Assembly: GCF_016811075.1 (NCBI RefSeq)
Contig: NZ_JAFBGL010000004.1
Span: forward strand, 1 to 64,000
Length of the DNA: 64,000 bases
From: Oceaniferula flava
GTDB lineage: Bacteria; Verrucomicrobiota; Verrucomicrobiia; Verrucomicrobiales; Akkermansiaceae
Direction: 5' to 3'
This document shows positions 26,088 through 62,743 of this stretch, piece by piece. The notes beneath the pieces were generated by a model. The model was given only the letters and a program-made list of their open reading frames with translations. It was not told the origin of the DNA and did no database searches. Both the position numbers and the translations under genes were made by a program. Numbering within the stretch: position 1 is the first letter of the stretch; every line of letters begins with the position of its first letter.

Positions 26088-26630
26088 ATGTCTACACCGC
26101 CACCATCATCAGAATTTGTCAGCCTTCTCACAGAGCATCAGGCGGATCTGTGGGCATTTATCATCACTCAGCTTCCAGGGAGCCCTGATGTCAGTGATGT
26201 TTTGCAAAAAACCAATCTCACCCTTTGGAAGAAACAGGCGGACTTTGAGCTGGGCTCCAATTTTCGTGCTTGGGCAATGACGATCGCACGCTTTGAAGTT
26301 TTAGCTCACCTCAAAAAACACAATCGTGGCAGCTGGCTGGTTTTCAATGACGAGCTCCTCGCAACGATTGCCGATGAGAGCCCTCAAGCCATCACGCCCA
26401 GTGCCTCACGGCTCAGCCAGCTGGAGCAATGTTTACAGAAGCTACGCCCGAATCATCGCGAGCTGCTCAATCATCGTTATCAGTCTAAGGACGGGCTTGA
26501 AACTTACGCTCGGAAGTGTGGTCGCAGTGTCTCCTCGCTCTCCGTCACCCTCCACCGTGTCAGAGCCACTCTACGCAAATGCATCAACGAGGGGCTGGCC
26601 ATGATCAAGATAGAGGGAGATGCACAATGA
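26088..26630 (+). CDS. ECF sigma factor (Rhodopirellula/Verrucomicrobium type)
   Basis: A 180-residue sigma-70-family regulator. Region 2 includes DVLQKTNLTLWKK (about 40-52) and FRAWAMTIARFEVLAHLKK (about 60-80). Region 4 runs from about 120 to 175 with a helix-turn-helix in SKDGLETYARKCGRSVSSLSVTLHRVRATL. It directs RNA polymerase to its own promoter set. The stop codon overlaps the next start (ATGA, 26627-26630), so the FecR-LamG protein is coupled and is likely its membrane regulator. A second such pair is at 62204-64000. Confidence 0.92.
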   Translation: MSTPPPSSEFVSLLTEHQADLWAFIITQLPGSPDVSDVLQKTNLTLWKKQADFELGSNFRAWAMTIARFEVLAHLKKHNRGSWLVFNDELLATIADESPQAITPSASRLSQLEQCLQKLRPNHRELLNHRYQSKDGLETYARKCGRSVSSLSVTLHRVRATLRKCINEGLAMIKIEGDAQ

Positions 26631-52017: not shown

Positions 52018-54633
52018 TTACTCGACATCGATTTCGCGCAGCGCCAGCGACACACTCCCCTCCTTGAACGGCTCGCTGAACTCGAGGCGGATGTAGCGGA
52101 CTTGGGTCGACTTGCTGAGGTCCACGCGGCGCTCCGCCTGATAGCCTTGCCAGGTCGATTCGCCAATCGTCACAGGCCGCTCTTTCATAGTCAGTGCGCC
52201 CTTGACGATGCATTTTCCGGCCGCGCCCTTGTCACGTGTGAAGGTGACCTTAACGGCGTTGAGGGGCATTGCCGCACCGAGATCGATGACGATGTAATGC
52301 GGGTATCCCTGGGCATCCTGGCCGATATCGGTGAGCCAGCTGTGGCCCGGTGAGTGATCGATTGCGTAGCCGGCGCGGCGGACGGCCTCGGCGGGATCCT
52401 TGTGCCCCGAGGCGGCGAGCACTTTCCAGCCTGCTTTGGCGGGGCCGAAGTTGACGGTGGTGATCTCACCCATCTTGATGCCCTTGCTCATGGCCCTTGC
52501 CTTGATCGTGCCCCCCGCTGGAAAATCGATGGATTTCTCGTAGATCGGAGAGTTCTTGCTCGGTTGGCTGCCATCGGTGGTGTAGCGGATTTTCGGTCCG
52601 GGCAACCGGCATTCGAGATCGACCTGCCCCTGCTTGTTCCTGCGCACGATCACGGGAGACAGCGGCGTTTCCAGCTCGGAAACATCCAGCCAGTCGCGTT
52701 TCTGGCCACCGGTGATCCACAGGGATTTTTTCGGTGCGGCGAAAACGAGAGCATAGCTGGCATTGATCAAATCCTCGGTGCCCATGTAGGGAGCCCCCAT
52801 GTGCGGCATGGTGAACCTCAGGCCAAAGTTGGGATCCCACGCGAGGGCAAACCACCAGCTGTAATGATTCATGACCTCAGTGAAGGCATCGGGTCGACAC
52901 AGATTCAGCGCCAACAGCCCAAGCGATCCGCCCGGCTCGCCGTAGGCGTGAGAGTTCCGGAACCAGGGATGGTGGCCGTGCATGAAGGAAATCATGGCAT
53001 CCTCCATGTCCTGGCGTTCTCCCCGCAGGTGGGCAGCCATGGAGAACAGGCCGGAGCGCGACCAAAATTCGCGTTTGTCTTTGTAAGAGGCATTGTAACC
53101 CAACGCCCCGTGGCCGCCCTTGGCCGGATCCGACCATGAATACTCCATATAAGGTAGCAGGGCATCCCAAAGGCCCGATTCAATCCCGCACTTCTCGGCC
53201 AGGGAATCCAAGACCAGAGCATGGGTCGCCGGGGCGACGAGGGCTTTGTTTCCGTAGGGCAGACCACCAGTGCCGTGGCCCAGGCAGAGCATGCCCCACT
53301 TACTGGTGTAAAGTCCGCTGCGCACCCAGCGGAGAATTCCCTCGATGCGTGGCAGCACCCGGGAATCGCCAGTAGCGAGGTAGTATTCAGCGTAAAGAAT
53401 GCCGGCATAGGAGGCGTGCCAGTAGCCAAGGTTGCCAAAATTTTCAGGCTCCGGGTATTTGTGAAGCATCCAATCGACCGCTTTCTTCACCCGCTCTGCA
53501 TGCGCCGGATCCTCGGTGGCCAACAAGGCGAGGGCGGAGAAGGTTGTCTGGATCACGCCCTTCCAGTATCCGTCTTGGTTCTGGCTGTTCACCAGATACT
53601 CGATCATCTGCTGATGCATCTTGTCCTTGTTCTGGCTGCTGAGGAGAGGTTGGAAATCCATCGTCTGACTGAGCTGGCAGCGGATACGGGTCGGTTTCCC
53701 ATTGCGCAGTAGATGCAGAGAAACGACGCCTTTTCCCTCGGGGGGCTTAGCGGACCAAGCTGCCAGCACGGCACGCCCGATCACTGCCTCATGGCTGCGC
53801 CGATACCAGTTCCAGCCAGGATCCACATCGTTCACAGGAAGCACACGTCCGGCAACGCCGATGATTTTATCACCATCTTTCAACCCCGCCTTCTCTGCCG
53901 GGCTCTTCTCGCGCACCTTGAGCACGGTGAGGATGTTTTGCTGATGCTCGGTGATGGCATCAAATCCCAGAGAGCCGACACCGAGTAAATCCGGCCCCTT
54001 TCCTCCGTTGGGTTTGCCAAACAAGCGGGAGGTCGGCTGACTGTGCAAGCGACTGAAGGAAACGCCAGAAACCAGAAGCGGCACGGAGCCCTCGACGCTG
54101 AGCTTCAGGGTGAGTTTTTGATCGACCAGCTCTGCCATTTGCTGCGCGTTCAACTCGCTCCACACCCGCACGGTTTGCAGCTTTCCCTCCACTACTTCGG
54201 CCTTCGCCCGGTTGCTGAGTGCGTGTAACTTCTTACCACTTGCGGCATCGTGCAGGCTGAGTTCGCAACGGCTGCTGCCTTTTCCAATCGTCCCCAGCAA
54301 ATCCAAGCTCAGCACACCGGTCCAGTCCCTCTTCACCTTAGTTTCCTTCTCGGTGAGCGCACCGACACTGAACTCGCAGCTGAGCGTGCTACCGGGAGCT
54401 AGAATAACGTGAGAAAGCTCAACGCCGAGTGGGCTCTGACCCACCCACTTGCGACAGGATTCCTTGGGCCCGGAGAGTAGTTTCCATTCGCGCGGGACCC
54501 CGGCGGCTCCAGCAGCTACCTTTTTATCAAGGCTCAGACTGGGGTTCGGGATACTCAATTCCATGCCCGACACAGCTGAAACTGATAGAGCGGAGATGAC
54601 ATAAAGGCGGCAGAGGGTGACGAGTCTCATCAT
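52018..54633 (-). CDS. DUF6288 secreted protein with PDZ and chitobiase-type domains
   Basis: About 871 residues. The start at 54633 or 54630 puts a signal peptide (MRLVTLCRLYVISALSVSAVS) first; the frame opens at 54771. An N-terminal beta domain (about 25-190) is followed by a PDZ-like domain (REKSPAEKAGLKDGDKIIGVAG, about 235-255). A large helical part (about 340-660, with barrel-like repeats such as YWHASYAGILYAEYYLATGD and MAAHLRGERQDMEDAM) has an (alpha/alpha)-type fold. It ends with a chitobiase/beta-hexosaminidase-C-type domain and an F5/8-type C-terminal beta domain (about 770-871). Typical of Verrucomicrobiota/Planctomycetota polysaccharide systems; substrate unknown. Confidence 0.85.
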   Translation of the reverse strand: MMRLVTLCRLYVISALSVSAVSGMELSIPNPSLSLDKKVAAGAAGVPREWKLLSGPKESCRKWVGQSPLGVELSHVILAPGSTLSCEFSVGALTEKETKVKRDWTGVLSLDLLGTIGKGSSRCELSLHDAASGKKLHALSNRAKAEVVEGKLQTVRVWSELNAQQMAELVDQKLTLKLSVEGSVPLLVSGVSFSRLHSQPTSRLFGKPNGGKGPDLLGVGSLGFDAITEHQQNILTVLKVREKSPAEKAGLKDGDKIIGVAGRVLPVNDVDPGWNWYRRSHEAVIGRAVLAAWSAKPPEGKGVVSLHLLRNGKPTRIRCQLSQTMDFQPLLSSQNKDKMHQQMIEYLVNSQNQDGYWKGVIQTTFSALALLATEDPAHAERVKKAVDWMLHKYPEPENFGNLGYWHASYAGILYAEYYLATGDSRVLPRIEGILRWVRSGLYTSKWGMLCLGHGTGGLPYGNKALVAPATHALVLDSLAEKCGIESGLWDALLPYMEYSWSDPAKGGHGALGYNASYKDKREFWSRSGLFSMAAHLRGERQDMEDAMISFMHGHHPWFRNSHAYGEPGGSLGLLALNLCRPDAFTEVMNHYSWWFALAWDPNFGLRFTMPHMGAPYMGTEDLINASYALVFAAPKKSLWITGGQKRDWLDVSELETPLSPVIVRRNKQGQVDLECRLPGPKIRYTTDGSQPSKNSPIYEKSIDFPAGGTIKARAMSKGIKMGEITTVNFGPAKAGWKVLAASGHKDPAEAVRRAGYAIDHSPGHSWLTDIGQDAQGYPHYIVIDLGAAMPLNAVKVTFTRDKGAAGKCIVKGALTMKERPVTIGESTWQGYQAERRVDLSKSTQVRYIRLEFSEPFKEGSVSLALREIDVE

Positions 54634-54702: not shown

Positions 54703-54734
54703 CAAAAAAAAGCCCCCCGACGGATGACGGAGAG
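54703..54734 (-). terminator. Terminator of the ArsM-like gene
   Basis: On the minus strand AGCTCTCC pairs with GGGGGGCT (G-T wobbles) and is followed by eight T, 28 bases past the stop. Confidence 0.7.
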
Positions 54735-54761
54735 CTTGAAGGTCTTTGAGAGAGCTACTGA

Positions 54762-55910
54762 CTAACAGCAACTATCACCGCCACAGCATTGTGAGGCATC
54801 GGAGGTGATGCGGTAGTTGGCGCCCTTGGTTTCCTGCGGATCGCGCTCGCGCAGCCCGGCTGAGTGATCGAAATCTTCGGCCTGCTCTTGTGGCACGGCC
54901 ACCCGGGGATCGATGCTCTCGAACATGCTGGCGTAGGGTTCACGCTGATACATGGCGTAGTGCTTGGAGCACACGGCGTAGCGTTTGCCGCGCTCCATGG
55001 CGTGGCCTTGATCATCGAGCACCTTCTTGAAAGGCCCCTTGTAAATCACGGCTTGGTGACGCTCTTGGCCCACCGAGGGGTCAGGTTTCCACGCACGCAC
55101 GGTGACCGAACGGAACTCAATCCCTTCGACCGTCTGCCATGGTTCCGACTCAAATTTCACATATTCGACTCCGTGGAATCCGGCGTCTTCAAAAGCACGG
55201 AGAAATGCCTGCTCGGTCATCGCTCCCGAAATGCAACCGCTCCAGAGGCGATCGTCTTGTTGCAAATGCTCCGGCACGTCTTCATCGGCGACGATGTCGG
55301 AAATCACCGCACGACCGCCGGCTTTTAACACCCGGAAAATTTCTTCAAACATCTGCGTTTTGAGCTGGGGCTCGACCAGATTCAGCACGCAGTTAGAGAC
55401 GACGACATCGACGCTGTTATCGGCGATCATCGTTTGCTCCCGACGAAGTTTCTCTGCGATACCCTCCATGGCGAGCCAGCTGTTAGCATCCTGCACCGGT
55501 GCCGACTTGAGTTCATTTTCCAACAAATTCAGATCAAGCGCCAGGTCCTGGATACGCCCCTTACGGAACTCGACATTGGAATGGCCGATGTTCTCCGCGA
55601 CGATGGGTTTATTACGCTCCGCCACTTCCAACATCGCATCGGTCATGTCCACACCAATCACCTGGCCCTCGGGACCGACGACTTGGCTAGCGATGAAACA
55701 GATCTTACCGGTGCCGCTGCCCAGATCGAGCACGGTATCGCCTGGCTCCACCCAGTTCGATGGATCGCCGCAGCCGTAGTCTTTTTCGATGACTTCGGCG
55801 GGGATTTTTTCGAGGTATTGCGGATCGTAGTCAACCGGGCAGCATAGGGCAGCTTCCTGTTGTTCTGCGGCGGCTGCGTAACGGTCTTTGACGGCGAATT
55901 CTGTTTTCAT
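54762..55910 (-). CDS. ArsM-type arsenite S-adenosylmethionine methyltransferase-like protein
   Basis: A 382-residue class I methyltransferase. It has the SAM-binding DLGSGTGKICFIASQ (about 63-77), VDMTDAMLEVAERN, and SNCVLNL (about 172-178), the motif with a conserved Cys found in arsenite methyltransferases. Cys23-Cys24 (ALCCPVDYD) precedes the domain and a Cys-Cys-Gly-Gly-Asp-Ser-Cys-Cys tail (375-382) ends it, both suited to soft-metal or thiol-bound arsenic. It should methylate a metalloid; arsenite is the best guess but the family also contains other substrates. Last gene of the protease-sigma-anti-sigma operon, 18 bases after the anti-sigma gene. Confidence 0.75.
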   Translation of the reverse strand: MKTEFAVKDRYAAAAEQQEAALCCPVDYDPQYLEKIPAEVIEKDYGCGDPSNWVEPGDTVLDLGSGTGKICFIASQVVGPEGQVIGVDMTDAMLEVAERNKPIVAENIGHSNVEFRKGRIQDLALDLNLLENELKSAPVQDANSWLAMEGIAEKLRREQTMIADNSVDVVVSNCVLNLVEPQLKTQMFEEIFRVLKAGGRAVISDIVADEDVPEHLQQDDRLWSGCISGAMTEQAFLRAFEDAGFHGVEYVKFESEPWQTVEGIEFRSVTVRAWKPDPSVGQERHQAVIYKGPFKKVLDDQGHAMERGKRYAVCSKHYAMYQREPYASMFESIDPRVAVPQEQAEDFDHSAGLRERDPQETKGANYRITSDASQCCGGDSCC

Positions 55911-55928
55911 GAGGGATGAGGTAATTGC

Positions 55929-56879
55929 TTAGAAATAGCTCACCAACTCGGACTGACTGGCGGCCTTTTGCTTGGCCATGAGGATAAAGGTATGCTTCGA
56001 ATCCTTCCAGCGAATATAGTTCCAAAGGCTGACTGGGCAGGTGTAGCAGTCTTTTTTGGCAACATTATCCATGGTCGGTAAATCGAGATCGCTGACGTCC
56101 TCGTTTCGCACGATGACTAGGTGAGCGGTCTTCTGCTCGCCGGCCACAAAGCACACCAGTGAGGCGACCTTGCCATTACCTAGCTGCATCTTGGTGCAGC
56201 CGCGAGACTTCATCTCACGCAGACCGGCAGGGAGCTCCGACAAGCTCGCCGGAGCGGGCAGATCGTGATCGGCCAACCAGGATGTCAGATGGGTGCTATC
56301 GCTGTCTGCCACATCGAAGGAAACTCCCTCGCTGAGCAGCTCGACGGCAGCTTGCTGGATCTGATTGGTCGCCAGAGCTTTCTTTTCCGCTCCGATATCC
56401 ACTTGGAAAGCGAGGAAGGCACCCAGCACCAGGGCGGCTGCCACGGCGGCCACGCTCATCCATTTTCTGGCGTTAAAGGGCATGGGCACGATCTTGTCTT
56501 CGCTATCGTCCTGACGCGCGTTTTGCTCCACTTCCATGGCCGCGAGAATCTGATCGCGCAAGCCGGCTGGCGGCGTGACATCGGCTAATGCCTGCTGCAG
56601 GAGATGATCCATTTCCTCGTATTCCGCTGGGTCGTCGAGCGACTCACCGCGCATCACGGAGAGCAGGCTGAGACGCAGCGTTTCAGGGATTTCGATGTCC
56701 GCGAGGGCGGCGGCAAACTCGGAATCGGCAGCCCGCTCGTCGGCGAGCCACTCACCTAGCTCACGGTCTTCCACCGCGAGTTGCAAGGCCTCCTTGAAAT
56801 CAGTATCACCAGCGTCGGCACCGTCTGGGCGGAAGCTGTGGAGGAGAAATTTGGCTTGTTTCTTATCCATGGTTTTCAA
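55929..56879 (-). CDS. Membrane anti-sigma factor with cysteine-bearing periplasmic domain
   Basis: A 316-residue single-pass membrane protein. The cytosolic part (1-140) is helical and acidic. One transmembrane helix lies at 141-158 (MSVAAVAAALVLGAFLAF), then a periplasmic domain of about 155 residues with Cys228 (RGCTKMQLG), Cys243 (LVCFVAG), and Cys278-x2-Cys281 (DCYTCPVSLWNY). It overlaps the sigma gene stop by up to 17 bases and starts at 56879 or 56870. It is very likely the anti-sigma factor of the preceding ECF protein. The four cysteines suggest a metal- or redox-sensing role, which is inference. Confidence 0.8.
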   Translation of the reverse strand: MKTMDKKQAKFLLHSFRPDGADAGDTDFKEALQLAVEDRELGEWLADERAADSEFAAALADIEIPETLRLSLLSVMRGESLDDPAEYEEMDHLLQQALADVTPPAGLRDQILAAMEVEQNARQDDSEDKIVPMPFNARKWMSVAAVAAALVLGAFLAFQVDIGAEKKALATNQIQQAAVELLSEGVSFDVADSDSTHLTSWLADHDLPAPASLSELPAGLREMKSRGCTKMQLGNGKVASLVCFVAGEQKTAHLVIVRNEDVSDLDLPTMDNVAKKDCYTCPVSLWNYIRWKDSKHTFILMAKQKAASQSELVSYF

Positions 56880-57405
56880 GATATTCGGGGTTCATTTGAA
56901 TCACCTTTTTAGGGGCGCTGGCGGGTTCTTGGCTCATGTGCGAGCGAAGCTGTTTTTTGCCTCGGGAAATACGCGACATGATAGTGCCGATCGGCACTTC
57001 TAAAATCTTGGCAATTTCTTTGTAACTGTGTTGCTGCAGGTAAAAGAGCGTGAGTGGCACGCGGAACACCTCGTCGAGTTTGTTCAACATCGACACCGCA
57101 CGTTTGCCATCGAGCTTGCGATCGCTCTGGTCGTCGTGCGAGGGCATCTGGTATTCGATCTCATCAATCTCGCTATCGGAAAAGCGCGATTGTTTCCGTG
57201 CCTGAGCCAGATGCTCGCGGAACAGGGTGGTAAACAGCCAAGTCTTGGCCTTGCTGCGATCCTTCAACTGATGCCCTTTCTGGGCCCAGATGCAGAAGGT
57301 TTGCTGCACCAGATCAGACGCTCCATCGGGGTTCTTTGCCAACGAATAGGCAAAGCGATAGAGCGGCTGGTAGTGCGCATCTACTAGTTCTTCAAACTCA
57401 GTCAT
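56863..57405 (-). CDS. ECF sigma factor
   Basis: A 180-residue sigma-70-family regulator. Region 2 includes LYRFAYSLAKNPDGASDLVQQTF and KAKTWLFTTLFREH (about 53-66). Region 4 contains the helix-turn-helix HSYKEIAKILEVPIGTIMSRI (about 132-152). It lies in an operon with an aminopeptidase-like gene and a secreted protease upstream and the anti-sigma gene, overlapping by up to 17 bases, downstream. It is probably freed by a signal at the envelope. Confidence 0.92.
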   Translation of the reverse strand: MTEFEELVDAHYQPLYRFAYSLAKNPDGASDLVQQTFCIWAQKGHQLKDRSKAKTWLFTTLFREHLAQARKQSRFSDSEIDEIEYQMPSHDDQSDRKLDGKRAVSMLNKLDEVFRVPLTLFYLQQHSYKEIAKILEVPIGTIMSRISRGKKQLRSHMSQEPASAPKKVIQMNPEYLENHG

Positions 57406-57453
57406 TTCGCTATGTAGGATGACTGAAGCCGATGCTTATTCCCAGAAAAAGAA

Positions 57454-58317
57454 CTATTTAGCCACAGGCTCCACCAAAGCGCGGATGGCGCTGACTGGAA
57501 CGCAGTTTCTGATGACCATTTGGAACGGCCCTTTGGCTTCAGATTTTTTCTGCGATGGGTAGTAGATACTCTGGGTGCTGGAGACCATGCCCACCACGTT
57601 GCCTTTACTGTCCAGTGCCGGTCCGCCGCTGGAACCACGGGCGAATTCAGCGGTGACGGCCATGGCAGTGGCACCGTTGCGTTTTCTGGAACGCTTTTTG
57701 TAATAACGGGAAACCTTGCCGGAAGTGTAGGTGTAGAAGCGGGTGTCCGGGTGCGCGATGATGTGCAGATCGTCCCCCACACGGGCATCAGGTCCCAGAG
57801 CCAGCGGCTTAAACCCTTCGCCGGCGACGCGGAAGATTGCGACGTCGTCTTTCTGACTGGCGGCAAGAATTTCCACCACCTGCGCGATCCGACCATCACG
57901 GGTGCGGATGCCAAAACCGGAAACGTCCTTGCCGTCGAAAACGTGGTAGTTGGTCACCATCACACCGTCCTCCGTAAGAATCCAGCCGGTAGCCGCGCCA
58001 TTGTGATGCCAGTGGGGGCATTTGGTGCATTTATAGACAGAAGCAATCGCCACCACGCTATCGGCACAGGAATCGTAAAGGTTCTCTGGTTTTTGGGTAG
58101 ATGGGCTCGGCACTGTAATCTTGCACGTCTTTTTCTTAAGCTGCGGCGCCAGTGTTTTGGCTGTCGGCACTTTACCGGCGTCGACTAATTTCCCCAGCCC
58201 GTCGGCGAGCGATGAAATGATTTTGTTATCATCCACCACAGGCAGCATAGGACGGGCGGTGAGTGAGGTGGCCAGCCCGAGCAGGACTGCGGCAGAAGCG
58301 AGATACGTGGATTTCAT
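57454..58317 (-). CDS. Exported trypsin-like serine protease (S1C-like)
   Basis: A 287-residue protein with a signal peptide (1-21, ending LTA). The catalytic triad is His125 (TNYHVF), Asp157 or Asp158 (DDVAIF) and Ser230 (GSSGGPAL). It lacks the PDZ domain of DegP-type proteases. A CTKCPHWHH segment at about 97-105 contains a CxxC and three His, which could bind metal or act in redox. It is placed 48 bases upstream of the sigma gene, so cleavage of the anti-sigma factor is an attractive but unproved role. Confidence 0.88.
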   Translation of the reverse strand: MKSTYLASAAVLLGLATSLTARPMLPVVDDNKIISSLADGLGKLVDAGKVPTAKTLAPQLKKKTCKITVPSPSTQKPENLYDSCADSVVAIASVYKCTKCPHWHHNGAATGWILTEDGVMVTNYHVFDGKDVSGFGIRTRDGRIAQVVEILAASQKDDVAIFRVAGEGFKPLALGPDARVGDDLHIIAHPDTRFYTYTSGKVSRYYKKRSRKRNGATAMAVTAEFARGSSGGPALDSKGNVVGMVSSTQSIYYPSQKKSEAKGPFQMVIRNCVPVSAIRALVEPVAK

Positions 58318-58353
58318 AAAAATGTGATTAGGTGGATGTTAGAAGGGGGCTTC

Positions 58354-59544
58354 TTAGCGGGACAGTGACTGCAATACGTAGTCGGATGGACGGAAGTTTT
58401 CGATGATTTGCTCCACCTGCTCACCACGCTTCATGCGCACTTCGCGGATGTTAAAGTTCGGAGTCTTGTGCGGAGCAAAGAGGATGTCGTCGTGGGTGCT
58501 GTTCTCGTGTTTCTTGAACATGTCCGGCACGATGTCGCCGCCGAGGTGATCGTCGCGGCCGGTGGCGAGGTGGCAGGTGCCCAGCACCTTTTCGTCCTGA
58601 ATATCAGAGTAGGAAACCGGCAGCACCTGCGTGCCGAAGCCGAGTTCGCCAAGGGTCCCCGTCATCGGATCGTCAGCAAGGCGTTGGTTGTGCTCGTCAA
58701 TGGTGGACTGATTACCCTCGATCAAGGTGGAGCTGATGATGTTGCGATCCACCACTTCCAGCACACCGAGTGTGCCGTCATCGTATTTCATCGGGAACTG
58801 ACCTCGGGCATCGACCGGCACGAAATACACTTCCCCGGCAGGAAGGTTCGCCACGTCGGGCTCCTTACCTTTGCAGAGACCGTGGCTTTTTTGTGCCTCC
58901 TGACCGTCCAGCCCAAGCCAAGCGGTGAGGATGCGACCATCTTCGAGCTCGAAATCGATTTCCACTTCGTCCGCCTTGGTCATCGCTTGGCGAACGCATT
59001 CGGCGTCCTCGGACACCTCGTCGTAATTCACCGCCAATCCGGAGTTCAGGATGATATCGTTCACTCCGTGCAAGGTGGCACCGCGGAAGCCATACTCTTT
59101 GCACTTCGCAGTCAGCGGTGCGGTGGCACTCCAGTCGGTGATGCAGAGAATGATATCGTAGTTGGTGTAAATGTCGTTATCCAAGGAAAGCTCATTTCCC
59201 TCGGCGTCCCAGCAGGGGTCTTTCATGTCGAGGTTGGAACCATTGGTGCAGTAGTAGGCGAACATTTCGCCACCATCCATTCCCAGCTCTTCCATCACCC
59301 CGTTGTGCAGTGCTTGATAGAAATGTTTGTAGGCATTTTTTTGCACCGGGAAACCATCGGCTTCGAGGTAAGCGTGGTTTTTCATCATCGCTGCCGGATC
59401 ATCAAAATCGGTCAGGATGCAAATGCGACACCCGTCCGTGGGCTCAAACACAGTTCCCAGTAAGCGGCTCAGACTAAATTCTCCGAACTCACGCTTGGTG
59501 GGATCGGCCAGTATTTCCTTGGTGATGTAAGCAGGCATCGACAT
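58354..59544 (-). CDS. Aminopeptidase T-like (M29 family) protein
   Basis: A 396-residue soluble protein whose second half matches the M29/aminopeptidase-T fold: AGEVYFVPVDARG (about 247), STIDEHNQRLADDP, GELGFGTQVLPVS (about 315), and HLATGRDDHLGGDIV (about 340) with conserved His and Asp that would bind two metals. Some relatives are ring-cleaving dioxygenases, so peptidase activity is not certain. The first half is a Rossmann-like domain. It is 36 bases upstream of the protease gene in the same orientation, the likely first gene of the operon. Confidence 0.75.
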   Translation of the reverse strand: MSMPAYITKEILADPTKREFGEFSLSRLLGTVFEPTDGCRICILTDFDDPAAMMKNHAYLEADGFPVQKNAYKHFYQALHNGVMEELGMDGGEMFAYYCTNGSNLDMKDPCWDAEGNELSLDNDIYTNYDIILCITDWSATAPLTAKCKEYGFRGATLHGVNDIILNSGLAVNYDEVSEDAECVRQAMTKADEVEIDFELEDGRILTAWLGLDGQEAQKSHGLCKGKEPDVANLPAGEVYFVPVDARGQFPMKYDDGTLGVLEVVDRNIISSTLIEGNQSTIDEHNQRLADDPMTGTLGELGFGTQVLPVSYSDIQDEKVLGTCHLATGRDDHLGGDIVPDMFKKHENSTHDDILFAPHKTPNFNIREVRMKRGEQVEQIIENFRPSDYVLQSLSR

Positions 59545-60257: not shown

Positions 60258-61133
60258 TCACTCCGCAGCACGTCCACGAACCGGCTCGGTGATGAGTTTT
60301 TCGTTGGGCACGATGACAAAGCCACCGTCGGGGCGAGTAAGTTTGGTGGTGACCGGTCCGACGCCGGCCACCTTCATCAGCTCACCCTCGTACTCAATCT
60401 GCGTCCCCACCTGATAGATGTCGCGTGAATAGACTCCCGAGACGATACTGCGGGCCATATCCTTGAGGCCAAGCCCCATGCACAGGGCAAGTGCAAGACC
60501 AAGAGCGCCCAGAACAATCATCACCGTGGCATTCAGCAGCTCCGTCTGGATATTCAGCTGAGCCAAGGCCACGGTGAGGACCAGAATGAAAATGAAACCA
60601 AAAATCACCTTGGCCAGGGTGCCAGCGTAACTCAGTCCGGCGGCGCTGAGGCTACCGAAGACGGCGGTCTTAATCATGTCCGCCACCACAAAACCAACCA
60701 GCATGATCAGCGCGGCGGTGATCGCATTCGGCATGAAGGCGATAATGCTCAGCACAATGTCCGAGATGTCTTTGATCGATGCCTCCTGGGCGGCCATTTT
60801 GACCACGAAGAGCATCGCAATCCAGAACAGCAGCTTGCCGACGAAGGCGCCAGGGGCCGACTTGATACCGGCCCGATTCAAGACGCCGGTGACGCCGGAT
60901 TTTTCCAGCAGAGAATCGATCCCCAAACGGGCAAACAAAGTGCAAACCACCTTGGACAGCATCTTCGCCACCATGAAGCCGAGGAACAGCAGCACCACAG
61001 CCAGCAGAAGCTGGGGAATGAACTCCGCAAAGTTCTCTGACATCTTAATCAGAGCCTCACGGATCTTGCTGAAAAAGCCTGAAAAGGAAAGACTGTCCTG
61101 TGCGAGTAAGTGCATGGATGTTGTTAAAAACAT
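60258..61133 (-). CDS. MscS-like mechanosensitive channel
   Basis: A 291-residue membrane protein. It has one N-terminal helix (LLLAVVLLFLGFMVA), further helices at about 75-105, 120-145 and 160-185, and the conserved glycine/alanine-rich pore-type helix ATVMIVLGALGLALALCMGLGLKDMARSIVSG (about 205-235), followed by a short beta domain ending GGFVIVPNEKLITEP. This matches small MscS-type channels lacking the long cytoplasmic cage. Third gene of the sigma-small protein-channel operon. Confidence 0.88.
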   Translation of the reverse strand: MFLTTSMHLLAQDSLSFSGFFSKIREALIKMSENFAEFIPQLLLAVVLLFLGFMVAKMLSKVVCTLFARLGIDSLLEKSGVTGVLNRAGIKSAPGAFVGKLLFWIAMLFVVKMAAQEASIKDISDIVLSIIAFMPNAITAALIMLVGFVVADMIKTAVFGSLSAAGLSYAGTLAKVIFGFIFILVLTVALAQLNIQTELLNATVMIVLGALGLALALCMGLGLKDMARSIVSGVYSRDIYQVGTQIEYEGELMKVAGVGPVTTKLTRPDGGFVIVPNEKLITEPVRGRAAE

Positions 61134-61145
61134 CCGCTGCTAAAA

Positions 61146-61394
61146 TCAAGCTTTGTAATCGCTGTCGCCGTGGTTGACCTTCCCAGTAGAGACAGAGAGC
61201 ACACCATCGACCACGGAAGGCACGCTCTTGAACATAAAGGTCGAGAGATCAGCGATGACATTCTCGTGCATCGCCCGCTCCATGACTTTCTCCACCCGCT
61301 GCGGATTCATCACTGGCTCCTCAAGCATGCCGGCTTCCTCAAACAGGAGACGGATTTGGCTTTCATCTAAGCTGATGGCATCGGATGGGTTCAT
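61146..61394 (-). CDS. Small protein between sigma factor and channel
   Basis: An 82-residue soluble acidic protein (MNPSDAISLDESQIRLLFEEAG) whose ATG overlaps the sigma factor stop (61391-61394, ATGA), so translation is coupled. The channel starts 12 bases after its stop. It has no transmembrane helix, so it is not a classical membrane anti-sigma, but a soluble anti-sigma or co-regulator is possible. Confidence 0.7.
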   Translation of the reverse strand: MNPSDAISLDESQIRLLFEEAGMLEEPVMNPQRVEKVMERAMHENVIADLSTFMFKSVPSVVDGVLSVSTGKVNHGDSDYKA

Positions 61395-62035
61395 GACTCG
61401 GTTGGGACTGGGTTGGGCACAGGTGTGAGGGGTTTCCCGGTGCGTTCGAACGCCTCTTTGAATGACTCAAGAGCGCGGTAGTAACGCATCTTGGCCGCGG
61501 AGACTCCGATATCGGTGACATCGGAAATTTCCTGCAGCGTCATTCCAGAGATAAATTTGTAGACAAGAATTTCTTTTTCCTTCGGTTTGAGTTTGTTCAG
61601 CGCTTCGTGGATACGGGCCGTTTTATCAGTCGTCTGGGCATTTTCAAAATTCCCAGACGGCAGGTCTTCTTTGGCATGTTCCTCGTAGGCTTCCTGAACT
61701 TCGCGCTTCCGGATAATCTTAGAGATGCGGTTGCGGCAGTAATTGTGCACAATTTTATACAGCCACGTCTTAAATGCCGATCTCCCTTCGAACTGGTGAA
61801 TCTTGTGGAACACTTGTAAAAGCGAGTCCTGCGCGACTTCTTCGGCATCTTCAGGCGACCCCAAAAATTTCATGCAAAGGTTGTAAACCATCGCCTCATG
61901 GCGCTGCACCAGCACTCGATAGGCCTCCAACTCGTGAGGCAACTGCTGCTGACAAACCTTCACCAGCTCTTCATCCGACAAATCACTGAGCGGATCATCG
62001 GTTGGGCTCGGAACAATCTGGAGCGGCTCGGTCAT
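61391..62035 (-). CDS. RpoE-type ECF sigma factor
   Basis: A 214-residue sigma factor of the RpoE class. Region 2 holds HEAMVYNLCMKFLGSPEDAEEVAQDSLLQVF (about 48-78) and the FKTWLYKIVHNYCRNRI core. Region 4 holds LTPxxK-like KPKEKEILVYKFISGMTLQEISDVTDIGVSAAKMRYYRAL (about 150-190). It is coupled by ATGA to the 82-residue gene and lies in an operon with the MscS-like channel, which suggests an osmotic or envelope-stress regulon. Divergent from the next sigma gene at 62204. Confidence 0.94.
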   Translation of the reverse strand: MTEPLQIVPSPTDDPLSDLSDEELVKVCQQQLPHELEAYRVLVQRHEAMVYNLCMKFLGSPEDAEEVAQDSLLQVFHKIHQFEGRSAFKTWLYKIVHNYCRNRISKIIRKREVQEAYEEHAKEDLPSGNFENAQTTDKTARIHEALNKLKPKEKEILVYKFISGMTLQEISDVTDIGVSAAKMRYYRALESFKEAFERTGKPLTPVPNPVPTES

Positions 62036-62203: not shown

Positions 62204-62743
62204 ATGGATCATCCACAGACATCAATGCTGGATCAGCAGCATATTCGGCTGATTACCGAGCACCAAACGGAACTATCCGCCTACATTCGCTCGATCATGC
62301 CCAATGTGGCCGGGAAGGAGGATGTCTTGCAGGAGACGAACTTAGTGCTCTGGGAAAAGCGCGCCGATCTCCGTGACCTCGAGGGGTTCAAAGCATGGGC
62401 CTACCGAGTGGCCTATTTCCAAACCTTAGCTTACCTGAAAAGCCACAAACGCCAGAAAATGGTCTACCTCGAGCCTGATGTGTTAGATCAAATTGCCACG
62501 GAGCATACTTTCATCGGCAGCATCGAAAGCTTATCGAATATGGATGACGCCTTGCAAACCTGCATGAGCAAACTCAACAACGATGACCAACAGCTGGTGG
62601 CTTTCCACTATCAGAAACACGGAGGCCTCAAAGATTATGCCAAGAAGATCAATATGTCGCTCGGCCGCGTCAAACACGCTCTCATCAGGATTCGCAGCAA
62701 TCTGAAAACCTGCATCAATCATCAGCTCCAGCACAACGTATAG
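62204..62743 (+). CDS. ECF sigma factor (Rhodopirellula/Verrucomicrobium type)
   Basis: A 179-residue sigma factor close in layout to that at 26088: region 2 with DVLQETNLVLWEK (about 38-50) and FKAWAYRVAYFQTLAYLKS (about 59-77), and region 4 with GGLKDYAKKINMSLGRVKHALIRIRSNL (about 142-170). The next gene starts four bases after its stop. Transcribed divergently from the RpoE-type sigma at 62035. Confidence 0.92.
   Translation: MDHPQTSMLDQQHIRLITEHQTELSAYIRSIMPNVAGKEDVLQETNLVLWEKRADLRDLEGFKAWAYRVAYFQTLAYLKSHKRQKMVYLEPDVLDQIATEHTFIGSIESLSNMDDALQTCMSKLNNDDQQLVAFHYQKHGGLKDYAKKINMSLGRVKHALIRIRSNLKTCINHQLQHNV

Follow-up and report, generated by a model that had tools for sequence, protein, structure and literature searches.

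The present study analyzes a five-gene locus in a 64-kb stretch of DNA (the window) from the genome of the marine bacterium Oceaniferula flava (Akkermansiaceae; assembly of 3.95 Mb in 51 contigs). Patterns detected are consistent with an envelope-stress circuit in which an extracytoplasmic function (ECF) sigma factor, here named ECF-A, and the anti-sigma factor encoded beside it probably control the adjoining gene for ArsM, a putative arsenite methyltransferase, together with a small regulon. Comparison of sequences establishes the pairing of sigma and anti-sigma genes, an autopromoter, a terminator, a recurrent linkage of the pair with ArsM, and conservation of the promoter on ArsM and AhpC/TSA genes. 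A previous sequence-only reading of the locus had proposed a thiol-, metal- or arsenic-sensing envelope circuit that also took in the two remaining genes, for an exported protease and an M29-like protein; the cysteine-bearing ECF/anti-sigma pair, tied to ArsM and to a regulon for thiols, metals and repair of oxidation, survives from that proposal, while the protease, the M29-like gene and a four-cysteine sensing site do not.

The ECF-A promoter and operon

ECF-A consists of sigma2 and sigma4 regions only, with Sigma70_r2 and Sigma70_r4_2 both above the Pfam cut-off. Across the 117 Akkermansiaceae genomes surveyed ("the family" below), its orthologs were mostly 57–79% identical (48% in two divergent loci) and lay beside the same anti-sigma factor family-wide, and an anti-sigma-like partner adjoined the ECF gene in 30/30 loci at the level of the class. 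Of 42 family loci, 39 carried GGAATA ahead of the orthologous ECF gene, followed 16–17 bases on by a box near HTCHHA; the best dyad occurred in 11 ECF upstream sequences, against at most 6 in shuffled controls, and the motif is also kept in other families of the class. Within the window the only strict match is the site at 57442-57415, which scored p=0.003 with a position weight matrix trained on 36 ECF autopromoters, the window's own being excluded (background of 932 genes; p<0.01 taken as a pass). By sequence, these are the features of an autoregulated sigma factor in an operon with its cognate anti-sigma factor.

At the other end, the terminator at 54737-54710 folds at -25.3 kcal/mol (z -2.0). 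Because the autopromoter lies in the 48-bp gap behind the protease gene and the terminator follows ArsM, we predict that ECF-antisigma-ArsM stands alone as an autoregulated unit, and some read-through into it from the protease gene may occur. The five genes are on the minus strand, as first described; from the M29-like gene to ArsM, they are separated by 36 and 48 bases, then overlap by 17, and are again separated by 18. Their reading as a single operon was rejected on account of the promoter ahead of the ECF gene, a shared direction being by itself no proof. We regard the locus as composed of two modules at least, one being M29-protease and the other ECF-antisigma, to which ArsM is joined. 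The anti-sigma reading frame can open at a TTG at 56879, but relatives begin MDK at the Met at 56870, which is probably the conserved start and gives an overlap with the sigma gene of 8 bases.

ArsM and its association with the ECF pair

The methyltransferase has a Pfam methyltransferase match and falls below the cut-off of two ArsM profiles (NF040538, 350 of 500 bits; PRK11873, 197 of 263). Its C47, C174 and C226 align with the As(III)-binding C72, C174 and C224 of a solved ArsM and are invariant in 25 relatives; the aligned cysteines point to an ArsM-type enzyme with putative arsenite methylation. The cysteine-rich C-terminus described earlier (C375 C376 x4 C381 C382) is present. ArsM was found in 24/117 family genomes, and in the ArsM tree the window copy stands apart from copies in arsenosugar clusters.

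A search for the gene set in relatives had been suggested as a check; the ECF-antisigma-ArsM order recurs both in Akkermansiaceae and in other families of the class Verrucomicrobiae. The order is found in G000, in the same genus (G035) and in other genera (G073, G001), and outside the family in metagenome-assembled genomes of a groundwater Verrucomicrobia (L168) and a Limisphaerales (L171), with two genes intervening in a further case (G241). A class-wide search from the ECF side (30 loci) placed ArsM directly behind ECF-antisigma in three more families (G400, G406, G611); this search eases the bias of starting from ArsM, yet its query was the ArsM-linked ECF of L171. An ECF gene lay on the same strand within 3 kb upstream of ArsM in 9/77 loci with enough upstream sequence, compared with 1/68 downstream. 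Twice the order occurs with arsenosugar genes: the L171 run comprises ECF, anti-sigma, ArsM, ArsS (TIGR04167, 425 bits) and an AhpC/TSA-like gene, and that of G241 continues into ArsS and ArsC. We regard the ECF-ArsM link as real. In Ktedonobacteria (L213, L226, L227, L240) an ArsM homologue is immediately preceded by a different ECF sigma gene, which may be an independent instance of ArsM under ECF control.

The promoter was also detected on ArsM genes unlinked to the ECF pair, in seven of 12 ECF-positive family genomes and in none of eight ECF-negative ones (Fisher p=0.010, an optimistic value, as related genomes are not independent). The positives come from three genera, or from four if an eighth genome, G115, is counted, where the promoter is on a TIGR04282 glycosyltransferase gene heading the ArsM operon. 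Among about 960 family genes, the top promoter scores belonged mostly to ArsM and other arsenosugar-cluster genes. Outside the family 3/56 ArsM genes passed, two of them (L293, L309) in a single family to which two matches of lower score (L270, L272) also belong. Two mutually related exported proteins near arsenosugar genes (L115:11186-11902 and L129:11615-12352), DUF547-like by eye only, stand behind ECF-A-type promoters that rank among the strongest seen.

Candidate regulon

Genes with a strict site 5–90 bp before the start in the window's genome include those for the window ECF, a second ECF, a 73-amino-acid Cys-rich lipoprotein and a membrane protein, and for several exported proteins: MsrB (SelR; then MsrA), two of the AhpC/TSA type and one with a double HMA domain. 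The AhpC/TSA promoter is kept in 10 of 19 orthologs from seven genera, and all 19 genomes with the gene are ECF-positive. As a set, these genes resemble a stress regulon of the envelope, concerned with thiols, oxidants or soft metals. The Cys-rich lipoprotein and the double-HMA protein are neighbours (C8:130695-131500, L265), each behind a GGAATA-type promoter, and could form an envelope metal buffer. The membrane protein (L267) had no Pfam match and is not claimed as DoxX-like.

The anti-sigma factor and its cysteines

In nearly all of the loci retrieved, the ECF gene was followed immediately by the anti-sigma gene, the other neighbours usually being unrelated. The protein has a single hydrophobic segment (residues 143–160), and the four cysteines listed in the sequence-only reading (228, 243, 278 and 281) do lie C-terminal to it, in the extracytoplasmic part. 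Its match to the anti-sigma profile NF052375 was weak (31 bits, cut-off 100), and a sequence search of the PDB with the anti-sigma profile returned nothing meaningful. In an AlphaFold2 model the extracytoplasmic domain was predicted with confidence (pLDDT averaging about 95 from residue 170 onward), and RseB/MucB C-terminal domains made up its five best VIA-align rows (Z 6.8–7.5, next 5.1; best row Z 7.5, rmsd 3.1, 89 residues). Foldseek gave no match below E 0.001, with RseB/MucB at E about 0.1. As modelled, the domain may share the fold of RseB/MucB.

Among 41 anti-sigma sequences, C228 and C243 occurred together in 32 and were both missing from 7, so that they were kept or lost jointly in 39, while C278 and C281 occurred together in 35 and were both missing from 5; no sequence lacked both pairs. 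Most class-level relatives keep C228/C243, and the C278/C281 CxxC is essentially confined to Akkermansiaceae; only the former pair appears to be old. A single four-cysteine metal-sensing site, as initially envisaged, is therefore unlikely, since the two pairs are lost independently, and it was rejected as a general mechanism. Two independent pairs would better suit disulphides or thiol switches.

These elements suggest a mechanism in which the sigma factor would be kept at the inner membrane by the anti-sigma factor until thiol-reactive envelope stress (an oxidant, soft metal or metalloid) acts on the RseB/MucB-like domain, most likely at the C228-C243 pair, and releases it. Freed sigma would transcribe its own ECF-antisigma-ArsM operon from GGAATA-N16-HTCHHA promoters and would also drive the small regulon of exported MsrB-MsrA, AhpC/TSA proteins, HMA protein and Cys-rich lipoprotein. 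ArsM would methylate As(III) within this stress response, and the arsenosugar operon of relatives would be driven likewise. Sigma binding, the release mechanism, the signal and ArsM activity are the steps that we infer. A more specific version, offered tentatively, is that the anti-sigma factor is a thiol-switch sensor whose C228-C243 pair might read trivalent arsenicals, soft metals or oxidants, in the envelope; an ECF sigma factor could in this way let Verrucomicrobiae set arsenite methylation and the making of arsenosugars by a signal external to the cytoplasm.

Alternative explanations

Several observations weigh against the proposed circuit. Most ECF-A pairs in the family do not adjoin ArsM, and the two occur together in 16/117 genomes, about the chance expectation, so that no correlation of presence and absence was obtained. 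The MsrB promoter was not conserved in the 13 further family genomes that have a match to MsrB, and C228/C243 are missing in one genus. The strict promoter pattern occurs at 23 sites in the window's genome against 9 for a reversed control, but whole-genome motif counts failed to separate ECF-positive from ECF-negative genomes, and for this reason only promoter-proximal, conserved sites were used as evidence. Finally, the promoter of ECF-B, the sigma factor heading a second ArsM operon in this genome, is similar, so some genome sites may be ECF-B targets.

An alternative explanation could be that the ECF/anti-sigma pair regulates the response to envelope stress in general and that ArsM is just co-transcribed with it in a few species, a neighbourhood without functional meaning. 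The pair is present in 76/117 family genomes, mostly without adjoining ArsM, and two same-genus loci (L111, L112) hold ArsM at the same place without it, both in favour of this explanation; a passive neighbourhood would not, however, account for recurrence of ECF-antisigma-ArsM in several families, nor for the ECF promoter on unlinked ArsM genes, and we consider it improbable.

Slightly less probable still is that a different ECF, such as ECF-B, drives ArsM and that ECF-A has another role. ECF-B is unrelated to ECF-A and, with a zf-HC2 anti-sigma factor, precedes the second ArsM (C1:417895), which is accompanied by ArsS and ArsC in an operon at C1:416868-419040 and onward (L114:7869-13060); a GGAATA-N17-ATCCTA site lies ahead of ECF-B. 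Its relatives were all upstream of ArsM (own genome, G317, G241), having been sampled from ArsM loci, and in G241 (L241, C199, 3531-8893) ECF-A/anti-sigma and ECF-B/zf-HC2 pairs are followed by ArsM, ArsS and ArsC in one run. Set against this, no ECF-B occurs near ArsM in most genomes with an ECF-promoted ArsM, and in genomes lacking ECF-A, ArsM lacks the promoter.

That all five genes form one circuit, with the exported protease cutting the anti-sigma factor and four cysteines sensing arsenic or a metal, is very unlikely: the tight spacing in the window, the contiguity of M29-protease-ECF-antisigma in same-genus G035 and partly in G012, G025 and G044, and the suitability of an RseB-like domain to regulated proteolysis are outweighed by the ECF promoter between protease and sigma gene, the restriction of protease adjacency to the genus and a few others, and the independent loss of the cysteine pairs.

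Layout of the locus and neighbouring genes

Coordinates are given in Table 1.

Table 1. Features of the ECF-A locus, with positions in the window.
Feature	Position	Strand	Remark
M29-like protein (M29/NicX-fold) gene	58354..59544	minus	adjacent to ECF unit, judged a separate module
Exported trypsin-like protease gene (Trypsin_2)	57454..58317	minus	adjacent to ECF unit, judged a separate module
Predicted ECF autopromoter GGAATA-N16-ATCCTA	57415..57442	minus	motif in protease-sigma gap
ECF sigma factor ECF-A, 180 aa	56863..57405	minus	Sigma70_r2 and Sigma70_r4_2
Predicted single-transmembrane anti-sigma factor, RseB/MucB-like extracytoplasmic domain, Cys 228/243 and 278/281	55929..56870 (ORF from 56879)	minus	
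Putative ArsM-type arsenite methyltransferase, 382 aa	54762..55910	minus	profile scores below cut-off; aligned cysteines
Predicted intrinsic terminator after ArsM	54710..54737	minus	10-pair stem, then T-run

The protease matched Trypsin_2 (Pfam, E 5e-24) and contains the expected CxxC and His (C97xxC100; triad H125/D158/S230). It was found in 57/117 family genomes at E 1e-15, and in several genera it often adjoins the M29-like gene, itself present in 98/117, where the ECF pair sits elsewhere. Most of the family ECF/anti-sigma loci fetched had no protease neighbour, and L111 and L112 keep M29-protease-ArsM without the ECF pair. The autopromoter separates protease and M29-like gene from the circuit, and the pair behaves as an independent module in other genera. 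The proposal that the protease cuts the anti-sigma factor found no supporting evidence, and the conserved genetic association with the anti-sigma factor that would mark a DegS-like site-1 protease was not seen. For the label M29-like, sequence and fold diverge: the protein has no Pfam or NCBIfam match, and a PDB sequence search gave nothing meaningful, but its predicted fold matches the M29 aminopeptidase PepS (4icr, E 4e-8), outscored by NicX dioxygenases (7cn3, E 2e-13).

On the 3′ side of the ArsM terminator, 52018-54633 encodes a large DUF6288 protein that is exported and contains PDZ, Fn3-associated and F5/8-type domains; a DUF6288 protein lies directly behind the anti-sigma gene in G044. 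The window contains three further ECF sigma genes (61146-62035, 62204-62743 and 26088-26630). Behind the ECF at 61391-62035 come genes for a small protein and for an MscS-type channel (60258-61133), and G012 and G035, of the same genus, share this arrangement.

Relation to known systems

The functionally closest circuits, by analogy, are those of ECF16, SigF-NrsF of Caulobacter crescentus and EcfF-OsrA of Bradyrhizobium japonicum, in which anti-sigma cysteines control release under Cr/Cd or H2O2 (PMC3511200, PMC3420878); the EcfF regulon includes MsrA/B (PMC3420878) and that of SigF a DoxX-family protein (PMC3511200). Both have an autoregulated ECF and a membrane anti-sigma factor with conserved cysteines, periplasm-facing in ECF16. 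The window system fails as a member of ECF16 on anti-sigma family and promoter: the ECF16 anti-sigma factor is a six-transmembrane DUF1109 protein, whereas that of the window has one transmembrane segment, an RseB-like domain and no DUF1109 match, and GTAACC-N16-CGAA contrasts with GGAATA-N16-HTCHHA. Unlike in ECF16, ArsM is a likely target. The RpoE-RseA-RseB and AlgU-MucA-MucB systems supply the best match to the anti-sigma domain, in the RseB/MucB C-terminal domain, but the window domain is fused to the anti-sigma factor, has conserved cysteines and is only about 4% identical, and no cognate DegS-type protease is established for its circuit. In Brucella melitensis the HOCl-induced pair BcrS-AbcS drives a methionine sulfoxide reductase operon (PMC8315932). 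It resembles the window system in combining an ECF/anti-sigma pair with Msr, and differs in having no arsenic gene and in organism and target set.

ArsR repressors bind As(III) directly, in the cytoplasm. The same ArsM subfamily occurs in bacterial ars operons and arsenosugar clusters (ArsM-ArsS-ArsC), sometimes in one gene run with ArsS (TIGR04167). Such ars operons are commonly ArsR-regulated (PMC11868830), whereas in the window the ECF sigma factor would replace or supplement ArsR control. In the literature covered, which is incomplete, no paper was found joining an ECF sigma factor to ArsM, nor an earlier description of an ECF sigma factor that regulates arsenic genes on a signal external to the cytoplasm. 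ECF envelope-stress wiring of arsenic methylation is apparently real, conserved and undescribed.

An ECF sigma factor apparently brings the arsenite methyltransferase, and in relatives the arsenosugar genes, into a regulon for thiol/oxidant stress at the envelope, for which the defined promoter motif and the predicted sensor cysteine pair offer testable handles. If true, this bears on when Verrucomicrobiae methylate arsenic: many marine and groundwater members would do so on envelope redox or metal stress, and not in response to cytoplasmic arsenite alone.

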